From: Parcubacteria group bacterium
GTDB lineage: Bacteria; Patescibacteriota; Minisyncoccia; Phycocordibacterales; Phycocordibacteraceae
Direction: 5' to 3'
Length of the DNA stretch: 51,755 bases
Assembly (NCBI GenBank): GCA_028286945.1
Contig: JAQBQR010000028.1
Coordinates: 1-51,755 of the forward strand
Shown: piece after piece, positions 3-26,040 of the stretch
Position numbering within the stretch: the stretch's first letter is position 1
Layout of the letters: each line of letters starts with the position of its first letter
The notes under the pieces: model-generated
Databases searched by the model: none
What the model saw: the letters and a program-made list of their open reading frames with translations, nothing else
Told to the model about the DNA's origin: nothing
Position numbers and translations under genes: made by a program

Positions 3-2618
3 GGAACTAACACCGCAGTCGGTACGTCAACGCTTACAATCTCAACTGCAAGCTATGTGGGCATTGGTACCACTTCGCCTGCATCACTTCTTGAAATATC
101 AGGAACAGATACCGGCACAACGGCCACCACATTCACTCCCGCAACGACGCTTTCAATTGGAAACCGTTCAACGACGAACAACACCATTGCTACACTCGCA
201 TTCCGCACGCAGGACGCGACAAATGGTGTAGCATCTTCTTCAGCACAAATTGTTTCAATTAATAGCAGTCACACAGCAACGAAGATTTCAGGTATTCTTT
301 CGTTCCAAACAAATAATGCGGGTTCTCTAACGGAAAAAATGCGTATAACGGCCGCAGGACTTGTGGGCATTGCAACCAATGCTCCGGGATCGTATCTGAC
401 TATTAACCCAGCAACTCCGGCCGCAGGCACGGCGAATCTCAATGCCACTCAACTTGTGCAAATCGTAGGTGGTGCCGGCGGCGATAATACCGCGAATACG
501 GGCACCGTGTTTGCAGGAAATGGAGGTGCTATCGTCATTAACTCAGGTGCCGGTGGTTCGATTACAGGAACACCAACCTCAGGGTTTGGAGGTACCGGTG
601 GAAACATAAGCTTTATTGCCGGTGCCGGTGGTGCAGGAGGAGGAACGACTCCATTTGGTGGTAGCGCGGGCACCATAAGCTTCACCGCTGGCGCTGCCGC
701 TTCAAATGCTGGTGCAGTTGGTGGAGACGTCACCATCGGCGGGGGATCTGCAAGCCTCTCAACGGCCTTTGCTGGGTCGGTATACATCGCTGGTGGTAAC
801 GCAAGCACGAATGCGGCTACGGGAAATGTTATCTTGGGCGTCAGTATTTCAGGAGGTACTCCTCGTGGCAGGGTCGGCGTGGGAACCACAACTCCGTGGG
901 CTCTTTTCTCTATTGATCCAGAAACAACAAATCTTGCAGGAGGTACTCCTGAATTTGTCATTGGTTCTTCGAGTGCTACTCATCTGATTGTTACGCAGGC
1001 AGGTAAGGTTGGTATCGGTACTACTTCGCCTGCAGCACAGCTCACGACGACCGGTACCGTCCAATTCGCGAACTATGGCAGTGCAGGGGCAACCGTAACA
1101 ACTGATGCAAACGGTAACTTGTCTGTGTCATCTGACGAGAGACTCAAAGATATAAATGGCAGCTTTAACCGCGGTCTCGCTGAAATCGAACAGCTTTCCC
1201 CAATCCTGTACCATTGGAATGCAACAAGCGGTCTTGATCAGAAGGGTCAGTATGCCGGTTTTAGCGCTCAGAATGTAAAATCCGTAATTCCTGAAGCGGT
1301 GGCTACCGACAGCCGTGGATACCTTACCCTTGCTGATCGTCCTATCATTGCTGCAAGCGTGAACGCCATAAAGGAGCTCGCGGGACGCACCGATACGCTT
1401 GCGACCAGCTCGGCTAGCTTCACAGCACAGCTCCAGACATTGAATACGGCATTTGCTCAGAATCAGACAAATTTGGCACTTCCACATGCGCTTACCGCCA
1501 CAACACTTACCGCAGAATCACTCAGCATTGCGCAGGGAATTTCTTCCGGCTCACTCACCGCACAGTCAGTGAACGCTGCCGGAACCATATCAGCTGCACG
1601 CTACACCGTGCCGGCTGAAGCAAATGTGTTTACGTTCGGCTCAAGTACGATGAGCACCGTGCTTCCGCAGGAAGCACTAACAGATAACGGAAGTGTTGAT
1701 ATCTACAAACTTGCAAGCTACGGCGTCGCGCGCGTTCAAGCACTTGCAGAGCGCACTGATCTTCTTTCGATAAAGATTGATGATATTGAATCACGCCTTG
1801 CGGCGATAGAAGTACTTACCGGTAGCTCAAGTACCGATCCGGTGAACATCGTGGGAACTACGCTAACAAATATTCTTTCATCACTCGGCGTAGTGATGAA
1901 GGACGGTCTTGCGATGTTCAATAATTTGATAACGCATCAGCTTACGCTCGTGGGAGGAACGGACGGAACGGCATCAACGGGTTCAGTAACCATGCCGTCT
2001 GGATCTACCTCAATCGTTGTTACGAATGCACTCGTGCACCCAAGCTCAAAGATTTTCCTCACCTTCACTTCGTCAGTAGACGGTTCGTGGTACCTCTCAG
2101 AAAAGAAGGAGGGAAGCTTCACGGTAATGCTCTCGAAGCCACAAACGTCTGACACGGCCTTTGACTACTTCCTCATTCAAACTGACCCTCACGCGCAGGT
2201 CGCAGCGGCAGGACAGGCAAACCAGCCTGCGACGCCACCACCAGGAAGTTCAGAGGCAACAACCACACCACCTACGGTTTCTCAGGATGGGGGACCAACC
2301 GTCTCGCTCGTTGGGGACGCTGCAGCACAGGTCGTTCAGGGTGGCGCATGGACAGATCCTGGAGCCACCGCTGCCGCAGCTGATGGCACGAGCCTCACCG
2401 CAGACATTGTAGTAACCGGTACGGTAGACGTGCAGACGCCAGGGCTCTATACCATTACCTACCGCGCTACCGATGCAGGAGGGAAGATTGGCCAGGCATC
2501 ACGCGTGGTAACGGTTCTGGCGCCTGTAAGCGGCGCATCTGATCCTGCGGTAACCGCCACGCCGCCTGCAGACTCCGGCCCAACGGCTGGGGCTGATGCT
2601 GGCACACCGGCTTCATAA
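3..2618 (+). CDS. Tail-fibre/adhesin-like surface protein with VGIGTTSPA repeats, Gly-rich region, S74 intramolecular chaperone domain and C-terminal DUF5011-like Ig domain; 5' end lies outside the window
   Basis: Frame is open to the window edge (GTNTAVGTSTLTISTASYVGIGTTSPA); S74 signature SSDERLKDI...YHWN...GFSAQNV; Ig-like GGAWTDPGATAAAADG...TPGLYTITYRATDAGG. Confidence 0.8.
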   Translation, partial: GTNTAVGTSTLTISTASYVGIGTTSPASLLEISGTDTGTTATTFTPATTLSIGNRSTTNNTIATLAFRTQDATNGVASSSAQIVSINSSHTATKISGILSFQTNNAGSLTEKMRITAAGLVGIATNAPGSYLTINPATPAAGTANLNATQLVQIVGGAGGDNTANTGTVFAGNGGAIVINSGAGGSITGTPTSGFGGTGGNISFIAGAGGAGGGTTPFGGSAGTISFTAGAAASNAGAVGGDVTIGGGSASLSTAFAGSVYIAGGNASTNAATGNVILGVSISGGTPRGRVGVGTTTPWALFSIDPETTNLAGGTPEFVIGSSSATHLIVTQAGKVGIGTTSPAAQLTTTGTVQFANYGSAGATVTTDANGNLSVSSDERLKDINGSFNRGLAEIEQLSPILYHWNATSGLDQKGQYAGFSAQNVKSVIPEAVATDSRGYLTLADRPIIAASVNAIKELAGRTDTLATSSASFTAQLQTLNTAFAQNQTNLALPHALTATTLTAESLSIAQGISSGSLTAQSVNAAGTISAARYTVPAEANVFTFGSSTMSTVLPQEALTDNGSVDIYKLASYGVARVQALAERTDLLSIKIDDIESRLAAIEVLTGSSSTDPVNIVGTTLTNILSSLGVVMKDGLAMFNNLITHQLTLVGGTDGTASTGSVTMPSGSTSIVVTNALVHPSSKIFLTFTSSVDGSWYLSEKKEGSFTVMLSKPQTSDTAFDYFLIQTDPHAQVAAAGQANQPATPPPGSSEATTTPPTVSQDGGPTVSLVGDAAAQVVQGGAWTDPGATAAAADGTSLTADIVVTGTVDVQTPGLYTITYRATDAGGKIGQASRVVTVLAPVSGASDPAVTATPPADSGPTAGADAGTPAS

Positions 2619-18810: not shown

Positions 18811-20745
18811 ATGAAAATCACCCCCCGACAATTTCTTGTTCAGAATCGATTTCTTGCGATGGCGATCTTCGTAACTGTAGTGGCGTTCTCGAGTATCGTA
18901 TTTCTTAATGTAGGAAATGTGCACGCACAGTCATGTGGGGACTATATCCAGGGAGGTGGTGGCACGTGTACCGATCTTGATCCAAGCCGCCAAGATCCCG
19001 CACAAGTGGCATTCACGGCAAATCCAAGCAGCATTCAGTCAGGCGCCAGCTCGCTTCTTTCGTGGGGTTCGGACAATTCAAGCAGCTATTATCCCTATGA
19101 TACTTGTACGATCGATCATGGTGTAGGAGCTTTTGCTAATTCGGGATCAGTAAGTGTTTCTCCAGCACAAACCACCACATACAACATCTTTTGTCGGCAT
19201 ACCGTGCAGTACTCAACTCCGTGCGGTAATACGAATTGTTTTACCTATGGGTATATAGATTCAAGTGCAGCCACTACGGTCAGTGTCACGCAAAATCCTT
19301 CGCTTCTCGTTTCTTGTTCTGTAACTCCCGCTTCCATAAATACAAATAATTCGGCCACCTGGGCGGTATCTGCATCTGGAGGAACGGGTTCGTATACGTA
19401 TGCGTGGAGCGGAACCGATGGACTTTCGGGTACTTCAGCTTCTGTTTCAAAACTCTATACAGCTGCCGGCGCAAAAAGTGGAACAGTTACGGTGACTTCA
19501 GTAGGAGGACAAAGTTTAAATACAATTCAACCAACTCAAGATCATCCTGGTTTGCTCGGATACGCAACGGACATCGTTGCCATGTTCTTGCACCCGGTTA
19601 ACATAGCGCATGCAATGATGATTGCTTGTGATGGTGGAGGATTCGCTTTCTTTATCGGAAATGGTGGAGGATGTGATGCCGGTGTTGGAGGTGATGGTCC
19701 AAGCGCCACCACTGTTTCTTGTACTAATACCATTACCGTCAATTCTCCACTCCAACCTGACCTCACCCCACTCTCCCTCACCCCACACACCGTAGTGGCA
19801 GGGCAATCATCAGTCTTCACAGCGACCCTTGCAAACACGGGCACGGCAGCCACTCCAAACTTCTCTTCAACGGTCTATGTTTGTGCCACGAGTGATGCCG
19901 CGTGTCTTGGAAACTCACTTGCACGAGCACAATCTGTTTGGGACAAACTCCTTGCTTATGTGCACGCGCAGATTGCACACGCAGCCACGTCCATGAAGAT
20001 CACCCTTACCGGAGCTGCTATCGGTGCAGGAAGTACCGGTCCCCAAAGCGGTTCGTATACCTTTGCTTCACCTGGCACGTATCAAATGCGCCTTTGTGCT
20101 GACCTTCCAAACAATCAAGTGACTGAATCAGATGAGAATAACAACTGCGGAAACTGGGAGGTACTTGCCGTGTGTCCTTCAGGCAACACGATAGATGGTT
20201 CAGGAAACTGTGTAGCTCCTCCGCCACCATCTAATCCTCAGCCAACGTGTTCACTCACTGCAACTCCTTCAAACTCTGTTCCCTCAACACTCACCTGGTC
20301 ATCAACTAATGCCACGACGTGTACGGGTGGTGGATTCTCGGCGGGGAATGCAACAGGTGGTTCGGTAACAGCAGGAACGCCGGGAACGTATACGCTTAGC
20401 TGTACCGGTTCGGGAGGTTCATGTAGTACCTCTGCAGATATTTCTGGAGGTGTCTGTACTGGTACTCCAACCATTACCATCGCCGCTGCACCCGGTCGCG
20501 TTCGTGTCGGCCAAACCTCGACCATCTCATGGACGGCAACTAACGTTCCAGGAGCAAGTCCAACCTGCACTGTCTCTGGTCCAGGCGTATCACAAAGTAT
20601 TCCAGCAGGAGGTACGCCAACGTGTGCAATTCCAAATGGATCGGCATCACCAACCATAAATACGCAGTCCACCTACACCATTACCTGTGCAGGCATCTCA
20701 AAGAGTGTGACCGTGAACGTGATTCCTAAATTCATCGAGTTCTAG
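18811..20745 (+). CDS. Secreted surface protein with CARDB and Ig-like domains (paralogue of 24130..26040)
   Basis: TM/signal N-terminus; PDLTPLSLTPHTVVAGQSSVFTATLANTGTAATPNFSSTVYVCATSDAACL; C-terminus NVIPKFIEF*. Confidence 0.8.
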   Translation: MKITPRQFLVQNRFLAMAIFVTVVAFSSIVFLNVGNVHAQSCGDYIQGGGGTCTDLDPSRQDPAQVAFTANPSSIQSGASSLLSWGSDNSSSYYPYDTCTIDHGVGAFANSGSVSVSPAQTTTYNIFCRHTVQYSTPCGNTNCFTYGYIDSSAATTVSVTQNPSLLVSCSVTPASINTNNSATWAVSASGGTGSYTYAWSGTDGLSGTSASVSKLYTAAGAKSGTVTVTSVGGQSLNTIQPTQDHPGLLGYATDIVAMFLHPVNIAHAMMIACDGGGFAFFIGNGGGCDAGVGGDGPSATTVSCTNTITVNSPLQPDLTPLSLTPHTVVAGQSSVFTATLANTGTAATPNFSSTVYVCATSDAACLGNSLARAQSVWDKLLAYVHAQIAHAATSMKITLTGAAIGAGSTGPQSGSYTFASPGTYQMRLCADLPNNQVTESDENNNCGNWEVLAVCPSGNTIDGSGNCVAPPPPSNPQPTCSLTATPSNSVPSTLTWSSTNATTCTGGGFSAGNATGGSVTAGTPGTYTLSCTGSGGSCSTSADISGGVCTGTPTITIAAAPGRVRVGQTSTISWTATNVPGASPTCTVSGPGVSQSIPAGGTPTCAIPNGSASPTINTQSTYTITCAGISKSVTVNVIPKFIEF

Positions 20746-21557: not shown

Positions 21558-21809
21558 ATGAAAAAAGACATCCACCCCGCAGATTACCGCCAGGTGATTT
21601 TCGAAGATATTGCCTCAGGCAAGTCTTTCCTTATTGGTTCAACCATCCATGCCACGGAAACGGGCACGTTTGAAGGAAAGGAATACCCAAAGGTAACCGT
21701 TGAAATCTCAAGCAAGTCTCATCCTTTCTACACCGGTGAAGATCGTACGCTTGATAAGACAGGACGTGTTGAGCGCTTCAAGCAGCGCGCACAGAAGGCA
21801 GGGAAGTAA
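21558..21809 (+). CDS. rpmE: 50S ribosomal protein L31, type B
   Basis: MKKDIHPADYRQVIFEDIASGKSFLIGSTIHATE...YPKVTVEISSKSHPFYTGEDR. Confidence 0.93.
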   Translation: MKKDIHPADYRQVIFEDIASGKSFLIGSTIHATETGTFEGKEYPKVTVEISSKSHPFYTGEDRTLDKTGRVERFKQRAQKAGK

Positions 21810-21810
21810 C

Positions 21811-21839
21811 AAAAAAGCCGCTTCACAGCGGCTTTTTTG
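21811..21839 (+). terminator. Terminator after L31
   Basis: aaaaaaGCCGCttcacaGCGGCtttttt. Confidence 0.88.
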
Positions 21840-21917
21840 TTGGCGGCAGATTGTTTTGTGCCGAACCCTCATCAAGAAGGTAATTATAATTCTTTGAATT
21901 CTGAAGTCAATTATAAA

Positions 21918-21949
21918 ATCAAACACACCGCTCAAGCGGTGTGTTTGAT
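21918..21949 (-). terminator. Perfect 15-bp stem with 2-nt loop, probable terminator of the tRNA-like element
   Basis: ATCAAACACACCGCT ca AGCGGTGTGTTTGAT; downstream on the minus strand is ttttataatt. Confidence 0.7.
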
Positions 21950-21951
21950 AG

Positions 21952-22020
21952 TGCCGGCGGAGGGAATCGAACCCTCATGTCAAACTTGATGAGGGTTCGG
22001 CATGCGAACCTGCCACCGGC
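21952..22020 (-). tRNA. Atypical tRNA-like element, anticodon uncertain (CAT in a candidate loop), 69 nt, no encoded CCA
   Basis: Acceptor GCCGGTG/CGCCGGC and T-arm GAGGG-TTCGATT-CCCTC are good; D and anticodon arms are degenerate and overlap a competing 10-bp hairpin. Confidence 0.45.
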
Positions 22021-22104
22021 ACATTGGAATTATAAGAAACAGTCGATCAAGAAAATCTTGAGATTCTTTAGGTAAAAACTGAGTTTTTTGCTAGGATTTG
22101 GGAA

Positions 22105-23058
22105 ATGGAATATTCGCCAGAATTTAAAACGAATCACAAGACCGCGTATCTGGCGGAAGAATATGAGCGCCTGGTGCGTGAGTATGAAGACGCTGTGGGG
22201 GCGGCAGCAGGTGACGCGGAACTTTTAGCACTAGCGGATGAGGACAAAACTCGCATCGAAGCGCGTCAGGGCGAGATCCTAGGAGAGATTGAGCAAATTC
22301 TCGATAAGGATAAAGAAGAAGAAACCTTGCCGAAGGCCGTGGTGCTTGAACTTCGCGCAGGTGCAGGAGGTGATGAAGCATCGCTGTTCGCCTCGGAGCT
22401 TCGTGATATGTATATAAAATATGCGGAAGGGAAACGATGGCAGGCACGCCGTATTGATGATCTTACTATTGAATTTGCCGGAACGGCCGCATACGAAGCA
22501 CTTCGCTATGAAACGGGCGTTCACCGCGTGCAGCGTGTGCCCCTCACAGAAAAGAACGGACGAATTCATACCTCAACTGCTTCGGTGGCCGTGCTCCCCA
22601 TTCGCACAAAACCAAAGTTCGAAATCAACATGGCAGATATCGAAATGGAATTCTCTCGCTCCGGAGGAGCTGGCGGGCAGAACGTGAACAAGGTTGAAAG
22701 CGCTGTGCGTCTTATCCATAAGCCCACCGGTATTGATGTGCGCTCGACCAGCGAACGTTCACAGCTCAATAACCGCCTTAAGGCGCTTGAGCTTCTTTCA
22801 GCAAAACTTGAGACCATCTATGAAGAAGAGGAGGCGAAGAAGCACGCAGATCTTCGAAGCGGTCAGATTGGCACCGGCGACCGTTCTGAAAAAATTCGTA
22901 CCTATAACTTCCCGCAAGACCGTGTGACGGACCATCGCCTCAAAGAGTCATGGCATAACCTCCCGAAGATTATGCTTGGGGGCATTGACCCAATAATCGA
23001 AGCCCTTCAGACCGCAGCAGCAAGCGGAGGAGTTGGTGCGGCAGATAGTGACGACTAA
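22105..23058 (+). CDS. prfA: Peptide chain release factor 1
   Basis: [70 protein letters not shown]. Confidence 0.94.
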
Positions 23059-23123: not shown

Positions 23124-24137
23124 ATGAACGAACCGACCCCGCTCGCTAACGTTGTTCCACCCCTTACTCGATCCGCTCAGACCTCTTTTGGTGCGCGGAA
23201 AATCTTATCAATAGTTGTTCTCCTCGCCGTAATCATCCTGATTCTGGTTGCGGCGCTTTGGTATTCTGGGAAACATAACGCAACCGCAAAACCATTAACG
23301 GGATTTGCTGTTGCGTTAGGCCATGGCCCTGCACGCTCAATGTATGGTGTCGATTTTAAAACAAATACATTCTCACTTCTTGATATTAGTGATGCAAACG
23401 GTACACATTACTTTGCGCTCGATGCACTAACTGGAGCAGCTCAAGAAGATGGGTACGCATACTACATCCTTGGCGCAAAGAATGCTCCAACAAAGGAGAC
23501 TGATCTGTATACCAAGGGCGCAGACGGGAATCTTGTCGCACTCACGCACTCGAACACCTTTAAATACAATCTTTCTGTAGATACAAAAGAAGGTTTATTT
23601 GCATATGAGGCAACTGCGGCAACAAGCTCCACAGCCATAAACACAACCAAAGATTGGCGTATCACCATCTTTTCACAGCAATCGAAGAAGGAAAGTGTAA
23701 TTGCGGCAGGCAATAACCCTGTTCTTCTGTCCGGCATGCACACTGTGGTGTATGACCGAAATCAAAAATTGTATTCCTTTAATATGCAGTCTCAAAAAGA
23801 AATGCAGCTCTTCGACATCGCAACGGGTACTCAATATGCAGTAGATGGCGTACGCAACATGCTTGCGGTGCAAAATCCAATCACGAAGAACATAGATTTC
23901 TTTGATATTGTATACGGCTCTTCGCTTAGTTATGAAAAATCAGTGCCTCTCGTCAAAGCACCGGATTCACTTTCTTTTGTTAATGAGGCGCTTATTGCTG
24001 CGTACTTCACTCCAACCAAGGAAGCCACAACCACCTATCGTTTCCAGTCAGTGGGAAGCCTGAATTCTGCGGTGATCACGGCCCCGCCAACTTATACCTA
24101 CGGAGACGTCCTTCGCACCTACCCATACCATGACTAA
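23124..24137 (+). CDS. Membrane-anchored beta-propeller-like protein (paralogue of 17846..18805)
   Basis: Pro-rich N-terminus, TM segment, YGVDFKTNTFSLLDI..., same genomic context as the paralogue. Confidence 0.65.
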   Translation: MNEPTPLANVVPPLTRSAQTSFGARKILSIVVLLAVIILILVAALWYSGKHNATAKPLTGFAVALGHGPARSMYGVDFKTNTFSLLDISDANGTHYFALDALTGAAQEDGYAYYILGAKNAPTKETDLYTKGADGNLVALTHSNTFKYNLSVDTKEGLFAYEATAATSSTAINTTKDWRITIFSQQSKKESVIAAGNNPVLLSGMHTVVYDRNQKLYSFNMQSQKEMQLFDIATGTQYAVDGVRNMLAVQNPITKNIDFFDIVYGSSLSYEKSVPLVKAPDSLSFVNEALIAAYFTPTKEATTTYRFQSVGSLNSAVITAPPTYTYGDVLRTYPYHD

Positions 24138-26040
24138 AAACATTACCTACAGCTTTGTACTTTTTATTGCCGCATTTGCCTTTACCGCACATGCGCACGC
24201 TGCATTCAATCTTCAGCAGGTATCACAGTATGGTGATAATAAGGTGTTCATGACCAATACAACTGGAGCGTACCATACACATTCAGGTGTTAATTATGAC
24301 AGTAGCGATTCTGCGAATTACAACGGTACCTTTACCGATAACTCACAGAGTCTTTGTAATAGTGCAGTCGCTGCATCAGGACTTTCAGATACTCTCGATA
24401 CATACTGTATTTTCGATAAAGATGACGCTCGTGTAACACAAGTTGTACTTGCGCCTCTTGCCCCGTGCGTTACCTGTGATGGTGGAGGCATTACAGGCGG
24501 TCCTGGCAGTGGTGGAACATTCTATATTCGTTCAATCAGTAAAGACGTAATTGTGTATCAAGTTCCTCTTCAACAGGATCTGCTTTCAACTGTTATTCCA
24601 GCAACGAATACATGGATCGATGCTGACTGGGCATGGATGCTCGCTGGAGGATTTATGGGAACTGCAGGACCTGAACCGCAGCGTCCGTACCCGCCTGACG
24701 TTTGTTTTAACTCACACAGCAGTCTTTACCACAGCCCAATTTCACTTGGTTTCACCACAATAACTTCTGAGACGCGAACCTGTGACGTGTATCATCATAC
24801 TGGCACTATAAATCAAAATCCTGTTGCAACCCTCACAGCCGCTCCTCCAACAGTCGTGGCAGGTGGCGCCTCTCTCTTAACCTATTCGTGCAGTAACGAC
24901 GCAACTGCAGCTGCTATCGATAACGGTGTTGGAGCGGTTAGTCCTGTTGCAGCTGGAAGTCGTTCGGTGACCCCCTCAGATACAACCGTATACACCCTTA
25001 CCTGCACTAACTCGCACGGTTCATCAACGGCGAGCGCAACGGTCACCGTCACTGTGCAACAACCAGACCTCACCCCTCTCTCCCTCACCCCTCATACCGT
25101 AGTGGCAGGGCAGTCTTCAGTCTTCACTGCAACGCTTGCGAACACCGGTACTGCGCCCACGCCAAACTTCTCTTCAACGGTGTATGTATGTGCAACGAGT
25201 GATGCGGCGTGTTTAGCTAACTCTCTTGCGCTTAATTCTTCTACTACCGTCTGGAATAAAATCCTTGCGTTTGTAACAAACATCGCGCACGCCGCCACGT
25301 CCATGAAGATCACCCTTACGGGCGGAGTGATCGCTGCAGGTGCGAATGGTACACAGTCTGGCTCCCACCCCTTTGCCTCACCAGGTACGTACCAAATGCG
25401 TCTCTGTGCTGACCTTCCAAATAATCAGGTCACCGAGTCCGATGAAAACAACAACTGCGGAAACTGGGAAGTGCTTGCCGTATGTCCTGTAGGCAACACG
25501 ATAGATGGTTCAGGAAACTGTGTGCCACCTCAGCCACCTGTTAATCCGCAGCCAACGTGTTCGGTTACTGCCAACCCAACCAGTGGAGTTCCTTCAACCA
25601 TTACCTGGTCTTCCACGAATGCCACGTCATGTACGGGAGGAGGATTCTCAACGGGAGGAGCTCCAGCCGGATCAGCAAACGTTGGAACTGCTGGAACATA
25701 CACTCTTTCTTGTTCAGGCACCGGTGGGTCATGTCCTGTCGCAAGTGTGACTTTGGGTGGGGGAGCATGTACGAACCCTACAGCAACCATTACTGCCGCT
25801 CAGACTCGTATCCGGTCCGGAGGAACCACCACTATCACGTACGCTGCCAGCGGGGTCTCAGGAGCTTGTACCGTTACGGGTCCTGGAGCGCCAGGTGCGG
25901 TTAACCCAGCTTCCTGCAACGTAGGTTCTACGTCTTTCCCAACTCCGGCCCTTCAGACCCAGACCACGTACACCATTACGTGTCCAGGGGCGACGAGTCA
26001 GGTGATTGTGAACGTAATACCTAAGTTCATCGAGTTTTAG
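24130..26040 (+). CDS. Secreted surface protein with CARDB and Ig-like domains (paralogue of 18811..20745)
   Basis: Signal peptide; PDLTPLSLTPHTVVAGQSSVFTATLANTGTAPTPNFSSTVYVCATSDAACL; C-terminus NVIPKFIEF*. Confidence 0.8.
   Translation: MTKNITYSFVLFIAAFAFTAHAHAAFNLQQVSQYGDNKVFMTNTTGAYHTHSGVNYDSSDSANYNGTFTDNSQSLCNSAVAASGLSDTLDTYCIFDKDDARVTQVVLAPLAPCVTCDGGGITGGPGSGGTFYIRSISKDVIVYQVPLQQDLLSTVIPATNTWIDADWAWMLAGGFMGTAGPEPQRPYPPDVCFNSHSSLYHSPISLGFTTITSETRTCDVYHHTGTINQNPVATLTAAPPTVVAGGASLLTYSCSNDATAAAIDNGVGAVSPVAAGSRSVTPSDTTVYTLTCTNSHGSSTASATVTVTVQQPDLTPLSLTPHTVVAGQSSVFTATLANTGTAPTPNFSSTVYVCATSDAACLANSLALNSSTTVWNKILAFVTNIAHAATSMKITLTGGVIAAGANGTQSGSHPFASPGTYQMRLCADLPNNQVTESDENNNCGNWEVLAVCPVGNTIDGSGNCVPPQPPVNPQPTCSVTANPTSGVPSTITWSSTNATSCTGGGFSTGGAPAGSANVGTAGTYTLSCSGTGGSCPVASVTLGGGACTNPTATITAAQTRIRSGGTTTITYAASGVSGACTVTGPGAPGAVNPASCNVGSTSFPTPALQTQTTYTITCPGATSQVIVNVIPKFIEF

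Follow-up and report, generated by a model that had tools for sequence, protein, structure and literature searches.

The region flanked by rpmE (21558-21809) and prfA (22105-23058), two plus-strand genes named from sequence, harbors two predicted RNA genes, both on the minus strand: RNA-1 (22020-21952), a tRNA-like RNA, and RNA-2 (around 21876-21808), a small antisense RNA whose 5' end is complementary to RNA-1. The window, i.e., the whole 51,755-nucleotide stretch analysed, corresponds to contig C9 in a draft assembly of 716 kb, 86% complete. Comparative evidence argues that RNA-1 is tRNA-like and not a decayed tRNA, and that it belongs to a so far undescribed family of RNAs from tiny bacteria, most of them uncultured; the literature searched held no account of one. 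On balance, we think it somewhat more probable than not that the two RNAs form a module in which RNA-1, a putative competence-regulated tRNA mimic, is neutralised by RNA-2 and acts on the translation machinery. The features of the locus are collected in Table 1.

Table 1. Predicted features of the RNA-1/RNA-2 locus, in window coordinates
Feature	Position	Strand	Basis or remark
RNA-1 (tRNA-like RNA, 69 nt)	21952..22020	-	covariance model R2, 72.4 bits; covariation
RNA-1 acceptor, 7 bp	22020-22014/21959-21953	-	
RNA-1 D arm, ~3 bp	22013-22004	-	
RNA-1 anticodon-like stem	22003-21995/21985-21977	-	
RNA-1 anticodon-like loop CCUCAUCAA	21994-21986	-	
RNA-1 T arm	21976-21960	-	
RNA-1 discriminator A	21952	-	
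RNA-1 segment complementary to RNA-2 (anticodon-like 5' strand and loop)	21985..22002	-	inverted repeat, 18/18
RNA-1 promoter motif, 56 bp, about four tandem ~11-bp repeats up to the -10	22033..22088	-	position-weight matrix
Repeats of the window motif: CTCAGTTTTTA / CCTAAAGAATC / TCAAGATTTTC / TTGATCGACTG	within 22033..22088	-	
RNA-1 -10 element TATAAT	22029..22034	-	direct reading; TANNNT at a like distance in most members
Probable RNA-1 3' terminator, strong hairpin and short T run	21918..21949	-	terminator-like scan; inverted repeat
RNA-2 sigma70-type promoter TTGACT-16-TATAAT, 11/12 matches	21883..21910	-	promoter read and kept in nearly all members
RNA-2, antisense small RNA	21808..21876	-	complementary segment begins at predicted transcription start; ends predicted
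RNA-2 5' end complementary to RNA-1	21876-21859	-	then short hairpin, then terminator
RNA-2 rho-independent terminator, used in opposite orientation by rpmE	21808..21841	-	inverted repeat; terminator scan

RNA-1, a tRNA-like RNA family

The original prediction placed an acceptor and a T arm on the minus strand, and both are present. It called the D and anticodon arms degenerate, and they are not merely so: family comparison reads a short D arm (GCAGGTTCGC, with one A-C mismatch in the window copy) and a long anticodon-like arm (ATGCCGAAC-CCTCATCAA-GTTTGACAT) with a nine-position stem, one mismatch and a 9-nt loop. The competing hairpin GAACCCTCAT/ATGAGGGTTC it had described is real and is used by the free fold of the window RNA-1 (-36.2 versus -28.4 kcal/mol for the tRNA-like fold), and the third occurrence of GAACCCTCAT is explained by complementarity between the segment CCCUC of RNA-1 and GAGGG in the T stem. 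An alternative-fold tRNA as the main function is not supported by the other copies: of 42 members, only about 10 prefer the competing fold by a margin above 3 kcal/mol, the margin in the rest being about 0-2 kcal/mol; the hairpin, not being conserved across the family, was rejected as the functional element. What stands of the original reading is a non-canonical, tRNA-like element with a possible alternative hairpin, whereas a pseudogene, an att-derived duplication and an alternative-fold tRNA are not supported. The window copy itself, mismatched in both its D arm and its anticodon-like arm and strongly favouring the competing hairpin, may be functional or may be starting to decay.

A canonical or even lenient tRNA identity was rejected, as ARAGORN makes no tRNA call at the window element and the Rfam tRNA model (RF00005) scores 20.9 bits, under its gathering score of 29; a high-scoring canonical tRNA call, which would have spoken against the original reading, does not occur with either tool. 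RNA-1 shares with RF00005 a 7-bp acceptor (99.3% of cells paired) and a 5-bp T arm with T loop (100%), both with compensatory changes, but it lacks the canonical 5-bp anticodon stem and 7-nt loop, having instead a stem of 8-9 positions and mostly an 8-9-nt loop. In the Rfam search, RNA-1 matches no family above cut-off. A tmRNA identity (RF00023) was rejected, the region matching the permuted tmRNA model only locally, at 10.6 bits, and weak matches at the locus such as MIR172 merely reflect the inverted repeat. The window genome has a normal tmRNA separate from the element (G000:C37) and 29 other tRNA matches over the Rfam cut-off. RNA-1 as supplier of a missing anticodon is unsupported in G041, a genome that carries RNA-1 copies and 35 ordinary tRNAs (including Leu-CAA, Met-CAT and Thr-GGT); because this set looks full, RNA-1 does not appear to be needed for decoding. 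The "anticodons" of the RNA-1 loops and the discriminator bases vary among members, and no amino-acid identity is evident.

Beyond the window, the search recovered 41 more RNA-1 loci, some in Kaiserbacteria-like Parcubacteria and some in different families of the order. A similarity search located it at the same place in G010 (83%), a pattern search before prfB in G041, and a second pattern search in three copies in G102; covariance models R1 and then R2 were used to extend the search within the genus and to other families, the distribution being sampled within the order. Matches outside the genus lie in G276 and G233 (f62), G322 (f3), G386 and G407 (f66) and G162 (f58), and two outliers in G229 (f57) have lower R2 scores (41 and 44 bits) yet clear RNA-2s. 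These outliers aside, the members used score 48-77 bits with R2 versus at most 47.6 bits for ordinary tRNAs, E-values being taken from a shortened calibration; genuine tRNAs matched by R2 are mostly 71-82 nt long and RNA-1 members 66-71 nt. Copies examined per genome number seven in G102, five in G096, four each in G042 and G041, and one to three in the others. ARAGORN calls only one member, L226. The CCUCAUCAA loop subtype gave 33 pattern matches in named genomes, and R2 confirmed only those in Kaiserbacteria/Parcubacteria records.

What is conserved in RNA-1 is the RNA structure. Among 40 aligned members, all four helices covary, with double compensatory changes in 22 of 23 pairs, standard pairs in 88% of cells (71% when shuffled) and a covariation score of 0.583 versus 0.243 for shuffled alignments (reached in 0 of 500) that is lost when partners are slid; this alignment was fitted to the model and is thus biased toward the structure. 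An alignment of 26 members made with MAFFT likewise shows changes on both sides of 11 of the 13 pairs predicted in the acceptor and T arm. Such covariation and conserved structure speak against a tRNA pseudogene, one of the possibilities originally offered for the element, and the lack of conservation that would have undone the original reading is contradicted by these data. Across the family, the acceptor and T arm are almost perfect, the D stem has about three pairs, and the anticodon-like arm spans 8-9 positions with some mismatches; the loops include CCUCAUCAA, CUUUGUCAC, CCUGGUAA, AUUGGUAC and CCUGACAU. In a few cases (L223, L231) the pair is poor or decayed. L231 (G102:C21) is a decaying copy, in which RNA-1 has no 5' acceptor strand and the RNA-2 promoter and seed are still there.

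RNA-2 and its predicted pairing with RNA-1

The inverted repeat of the original prediction (21859-21876 and 21985-22002) was confirmed as 18 nt of 100% complementarity, 108 nt apart; by estimate, the chance of such a pair in 900 random bases is about 1e-5. Its origin as an att or recombination duplication is not supported: the inverted copy forms the 5' end of another predicted RNA, which has a promoter and a terminator to itself, and at about 40 loci this segment co-evolves with RNA-1. Almost all loci have a promoter resembling TTGAC(A)-16..18-TATAAT at a distance of a few to about 40 nt past RNA-1; the DNA that follows the predicted RNA-2 start can pair with the loop and the 5' stem strand of RNA-1, and a terminator comes next. 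The predicted start and the beginning of the complementary segment differ by no more than about 3 nt. About half of the loci have a second RNA-2 segment, which matches the 3' strand of the RNA-1 arm, and therefore the two hairpins could exchange strands completely. The hairpin that follows RNA-1 in the window is also present in G010, while most other members have none.

Loops differ between paralogues, and most RNA-1s are predicted to pair best with their own RNA-2. When duplexes with downstream DNA were compared for the first 27 loci, the own partner was the best of 27 for 20 RNA-1s. Four exceptions (L148, L149, L150 and L151) were ruled out as solitary RNA-1s, because their RNA-2 lies upstream on the same strand; gene order can therefore change while the pair persists. 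In a promoter-anchored test covering both sides, the own RNA-2 ranks first for 29 of 42. Cofolding within ten genomes ranks the cognate RNA-2 first for 29 of 33 RNA-1s, with a median penalty of 6.5 kcal/mol for a wrong partner and most non-cognate pairs near 0 kcal/mol. At equivalent addresses in related genomes, i.e., prfB (G041/G042), grpE-dnaK (G102/G107) and the 3' side of rpoC (G041/G096), the loops differ and complementarity to the local RNA-2 is kept. Judged by sequence only, the locus thus shows what marks an antisense pair, two separately promoted RNAs with extended, co-varying complementarity. A scan of G041 for long trans-acting targets of RNA-1 loops yielded none above background, a weak test in that the true RNA-2 of the prfB locus was also missed.

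The RNA-1 promoter motif and competence genes

The tandem repeats upstream of RNA-1 in the genus make up a 56-bp motif of fixed spacing, described by a position-weight matrix built from 25 RNA-1 upstream regions, the window's included. The window motif scores 27.5 bits and is the sole match above 14 bits within the window. In 1.04 Mb of fetched loci, 25 of 28 matches above 19 bits precede RNA-1, in a sample gathered around RNA-1 and tRNAs and with a matrix trained on the RNA-1 sites. Circularity was avoided by rebuilding the matrix without G041 and then scanning the whole of that genome (702,407 bases): eight matches reach at least 15 bits, namely the four RNA-1 genes, comEC, dprA, a RadC-type gene (UPF0758) and one other protein gene, whose first 70 residues have no Pfam match, while the shuffled maximum is 9.7 bits on one strand. 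A pattern search of 106 genomes returned 37 motif matches versus 6 for the reversed control. By inspection and Pfam, genes after the motif encode DprA, ComEC, a T2SSE-type ATPase, a HerA/TrwB-like ATPase, a PIF1-like helicase, HigB/Gp49 and PemK/MazF; G101, G102 and G107 carry the motif before genes for DprA, ComEC, the T2SSE-type ATPase, HigB/Gp49 and PemK/MazF.

The motif stands at the start of comEC and/or dprA in G010, G041, G042, G096, G101, G102 and G107. In the window genome it is weak before dprA (9.7 bits) and comEC (6.7 bits); these sites are the best in their own locus, lie at the gene start and score above shuffled controls. Because the motif is common to RNA-1, comEC, dprA and radC, RNA-1 probably belongs to a natural-competence regulon in the genus of the window. 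Upstream sequences differ in homologues from outside this genus, and the competence link is therefore drawn for the genus only. Repeats of 11 bp placed in tandem across the -35 region are characteristic of OmpR/PhoB-type activators. The HigB- and PemK-type genes under the motif in G107 fit a competence toxin theme and are no proof of RNA-1 toxicity. In Saccharibacteria, natural transformation through ComEC has been shown experimentally (PMC10633639).

Several further observations were made at motif sites and around the locus. In the other families (L216, L217, L220, L221, L226 and L227), a hairpin or palindrome (ACTTAAGTTGATGAACTTAAGT in L226, for example) lies directly before RNA-1, where the genus motif would be. 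A 26-bit copy of the competence-type motif is found in L032 (1164-1480; G000 contig C27, between miaA and tRNA-Leu), where it precedes an intergenic stretch of about 250 nt with a closing inverted repeat CAGGATTGAGAG/CTCTCAATCCTG, a terminator and no Rfam match, possibly another regulated non-coding RNA. At L274, L282 and L290 the motif precedes related secreted-type proteins (YHFSNFSATTPLHIYATTGK...), S53-type peptidase-like by eye, one N-terminal piece of which gave no Pfam match; at L267 and L294, in G096 and G107, the proteins encoded directly under the motif are small and NDK-like (PF00334 by Pfam for L267). In the window, RNA-1 and prfA are divergent with 84 bp in common (22021-22104), and the RNA-1 motif overlaps a prfA upstream region conserved in G010 (AGGTAAAAACTGAGTTTTTTG). 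The region is flanked by two much-alike large secreted-type proteins (18811-20745, 644 aa; 24130-26040, 636 aa), both with DLTPLSLTPHTVVAGQSS stretches and likely duplicates.

Proposed mechanism, alternatives and known systems

In the mechanism we favour, RNA-1 would be a dedicated mimic of tRNA, expressed from a promoter with the control motif found at DNA-uptake (competence) genes, and RNA-2 would be made, probably constitutively, from an ordinary strong promoter. The RNA-2 5' end would pair first with the RNA-1 anticodon-like loop and then invade the 5' strand of the arm; where present, in about half of the copies, the second RNA-2 segment would capture the 3' strand and open the whole arm. 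At basal level, RNA-2 would most likely neutralise RNA-1. Upon induction of the competence regulon, RNA-1 would exceed RNA-2 and act as a tRNA mimic on the translation machinery, possibly causing a pause in translation or growth. Computation supports the RNA-1 fold, its complementarity to and co-evolution with RNA-2, the orthogonality of the pairs, the arrangement of promoters and terminators, and the motif in common with comEC, dprA and radC; we infer that both RNAs are transcribed, that RNA-2 inhibits rather than activates, that competence induces RNA-1 and that RNA-1 affects translation. A fuller version, in which this RNA-only antagonistic module restrains translation or growth of competent cells through a DNA-uptake-linked tRNA mimic, the mimic is neutralised by a dedicated antisense RNA aimed at its anticodon-like loop, and paralogues diversify to stay orthogonal, is offered tentatively.

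The conserved pairing could also build a bipartite complex, in which RNA-2 opens the RNA-1 anticodon-like arm to make the active form, with no inhibition. Indeed, in window-like copies RNA-2 pairing would free the T-stem strand and restore the acceptor and T arm over the competing hairpin. However, most members adopt the tRNA-like form at or near their free minimum without help, and an ordinary promoter on RNA-2 with a special one on RNA-1 is the layout expected of an antisense brake, and we regard such a complex as unlikely. A selfish RNA-only addiction (toxin-antitoxin) module, whose competence promoter was merely captured in this genus, would suit the patchy distribution within order and genus, the several orthogonal copies per genome, the antisense layout and the other toxin-type genes under the same motif. 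It seems quite unlikely, given that copies occupy the same addresses beside housekeeping genes in related genomes, that no association with mobile genes was seen, and that one exact-pattern scan of viral contigs gave no match to the CCUCAUCAA subtype. The module has no constant orientation toward its neighbours, being divergent from prfA in the window, on the strand of prfB and convergent at other sites; the neighbours themselves vary, and RNA-2 is equipped with a promoter and a terminator of its own. Control in cis of an adjacent gene (prfA, rpmE, prfB or others) by a leader or attenuator, to which the 84-bp distance from prfA in the window and the position before prfB in G041 and G042 might point, is thus very improbable. 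A tRNA pseudogene or att scar, with an inverted repeat arising by chance or template switch, would explain the missing ARAGORN call, the arm mismatches and the strong repeat, but is barely credible against covariation and a conserved paired architecture at about 40 loci in several families of the order.

If the two-RNA module we favour is true, it would establish a new non-coding RNA class in which every free-standing tRNA mimic is matched by a private antisense RNA, and would do so in the Patescibacteria, a large, mostly uncultured part of bacterial diversity. In the whole G041 genome, half of the detectable putative competence-regulon sites are RNA-1 genes, offering a testable entry to the control of gene uptake in these reduced bacteria, and the orthogonal natural RNA pairs might find use as regulatory parts.

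By analogy, the proposed module resembles toxTA of Haemophilus influenzae, a competence-controlled toxin-antitoxin pair (PMC6957337), in being a two-part antagonistic module in a competence regulon with patchy distribution. Unlike toxTA, a protein/protein system, both partners here are predicted RNAs. CreTA comprises an RNA toxin that depletes a rare tRNA and is CRISPR-repressed; the parallel would be a non-coding RNA that is proposed to act on the tRNA/translation system and is checked by another RNA, yet CreT is no tRNA mimic and its control needs Cascade. In ColE1 RNA I/RNA II, hok/Sok and other type I toxin-antitoxin loci, a small antisense RNA pairs first with the loop of a structured target, and RNA-2 is similar in its constitutive-looking expression signals, predicted loop-first pairing and several loci with separate specificities. 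In contrast to those systems, RNA-2 would target neither a primer nor a toxin mRNA but a free-standing RNA that resembles a tRNA, with no protein evident, and the target's promoter bears a motif common to DNA-uptake genes. Like tRNAs (RF00005; tRNA-Sec, tRNA-Pyl, allo-tRNAs), RNA-1 has a 7-bp acceptor, a 5-bp T stem, mostly a TTCRA loop and, in many members, GG in the D region, whereas it has no 2-nt linker after the acceptor, a D stem of about 3 bp, an anticodon-like stem of about 8-9 bp with an 8-9-nt loop, and practically no variable region. At 69 nt, RNA-1 is too short for the tag reading frame and pseudoknots of tmRNA (RF00023), but it shares with tmRNA a tRNA-like domain, a reduced D arm and a long helix replacing the anticodon arm.
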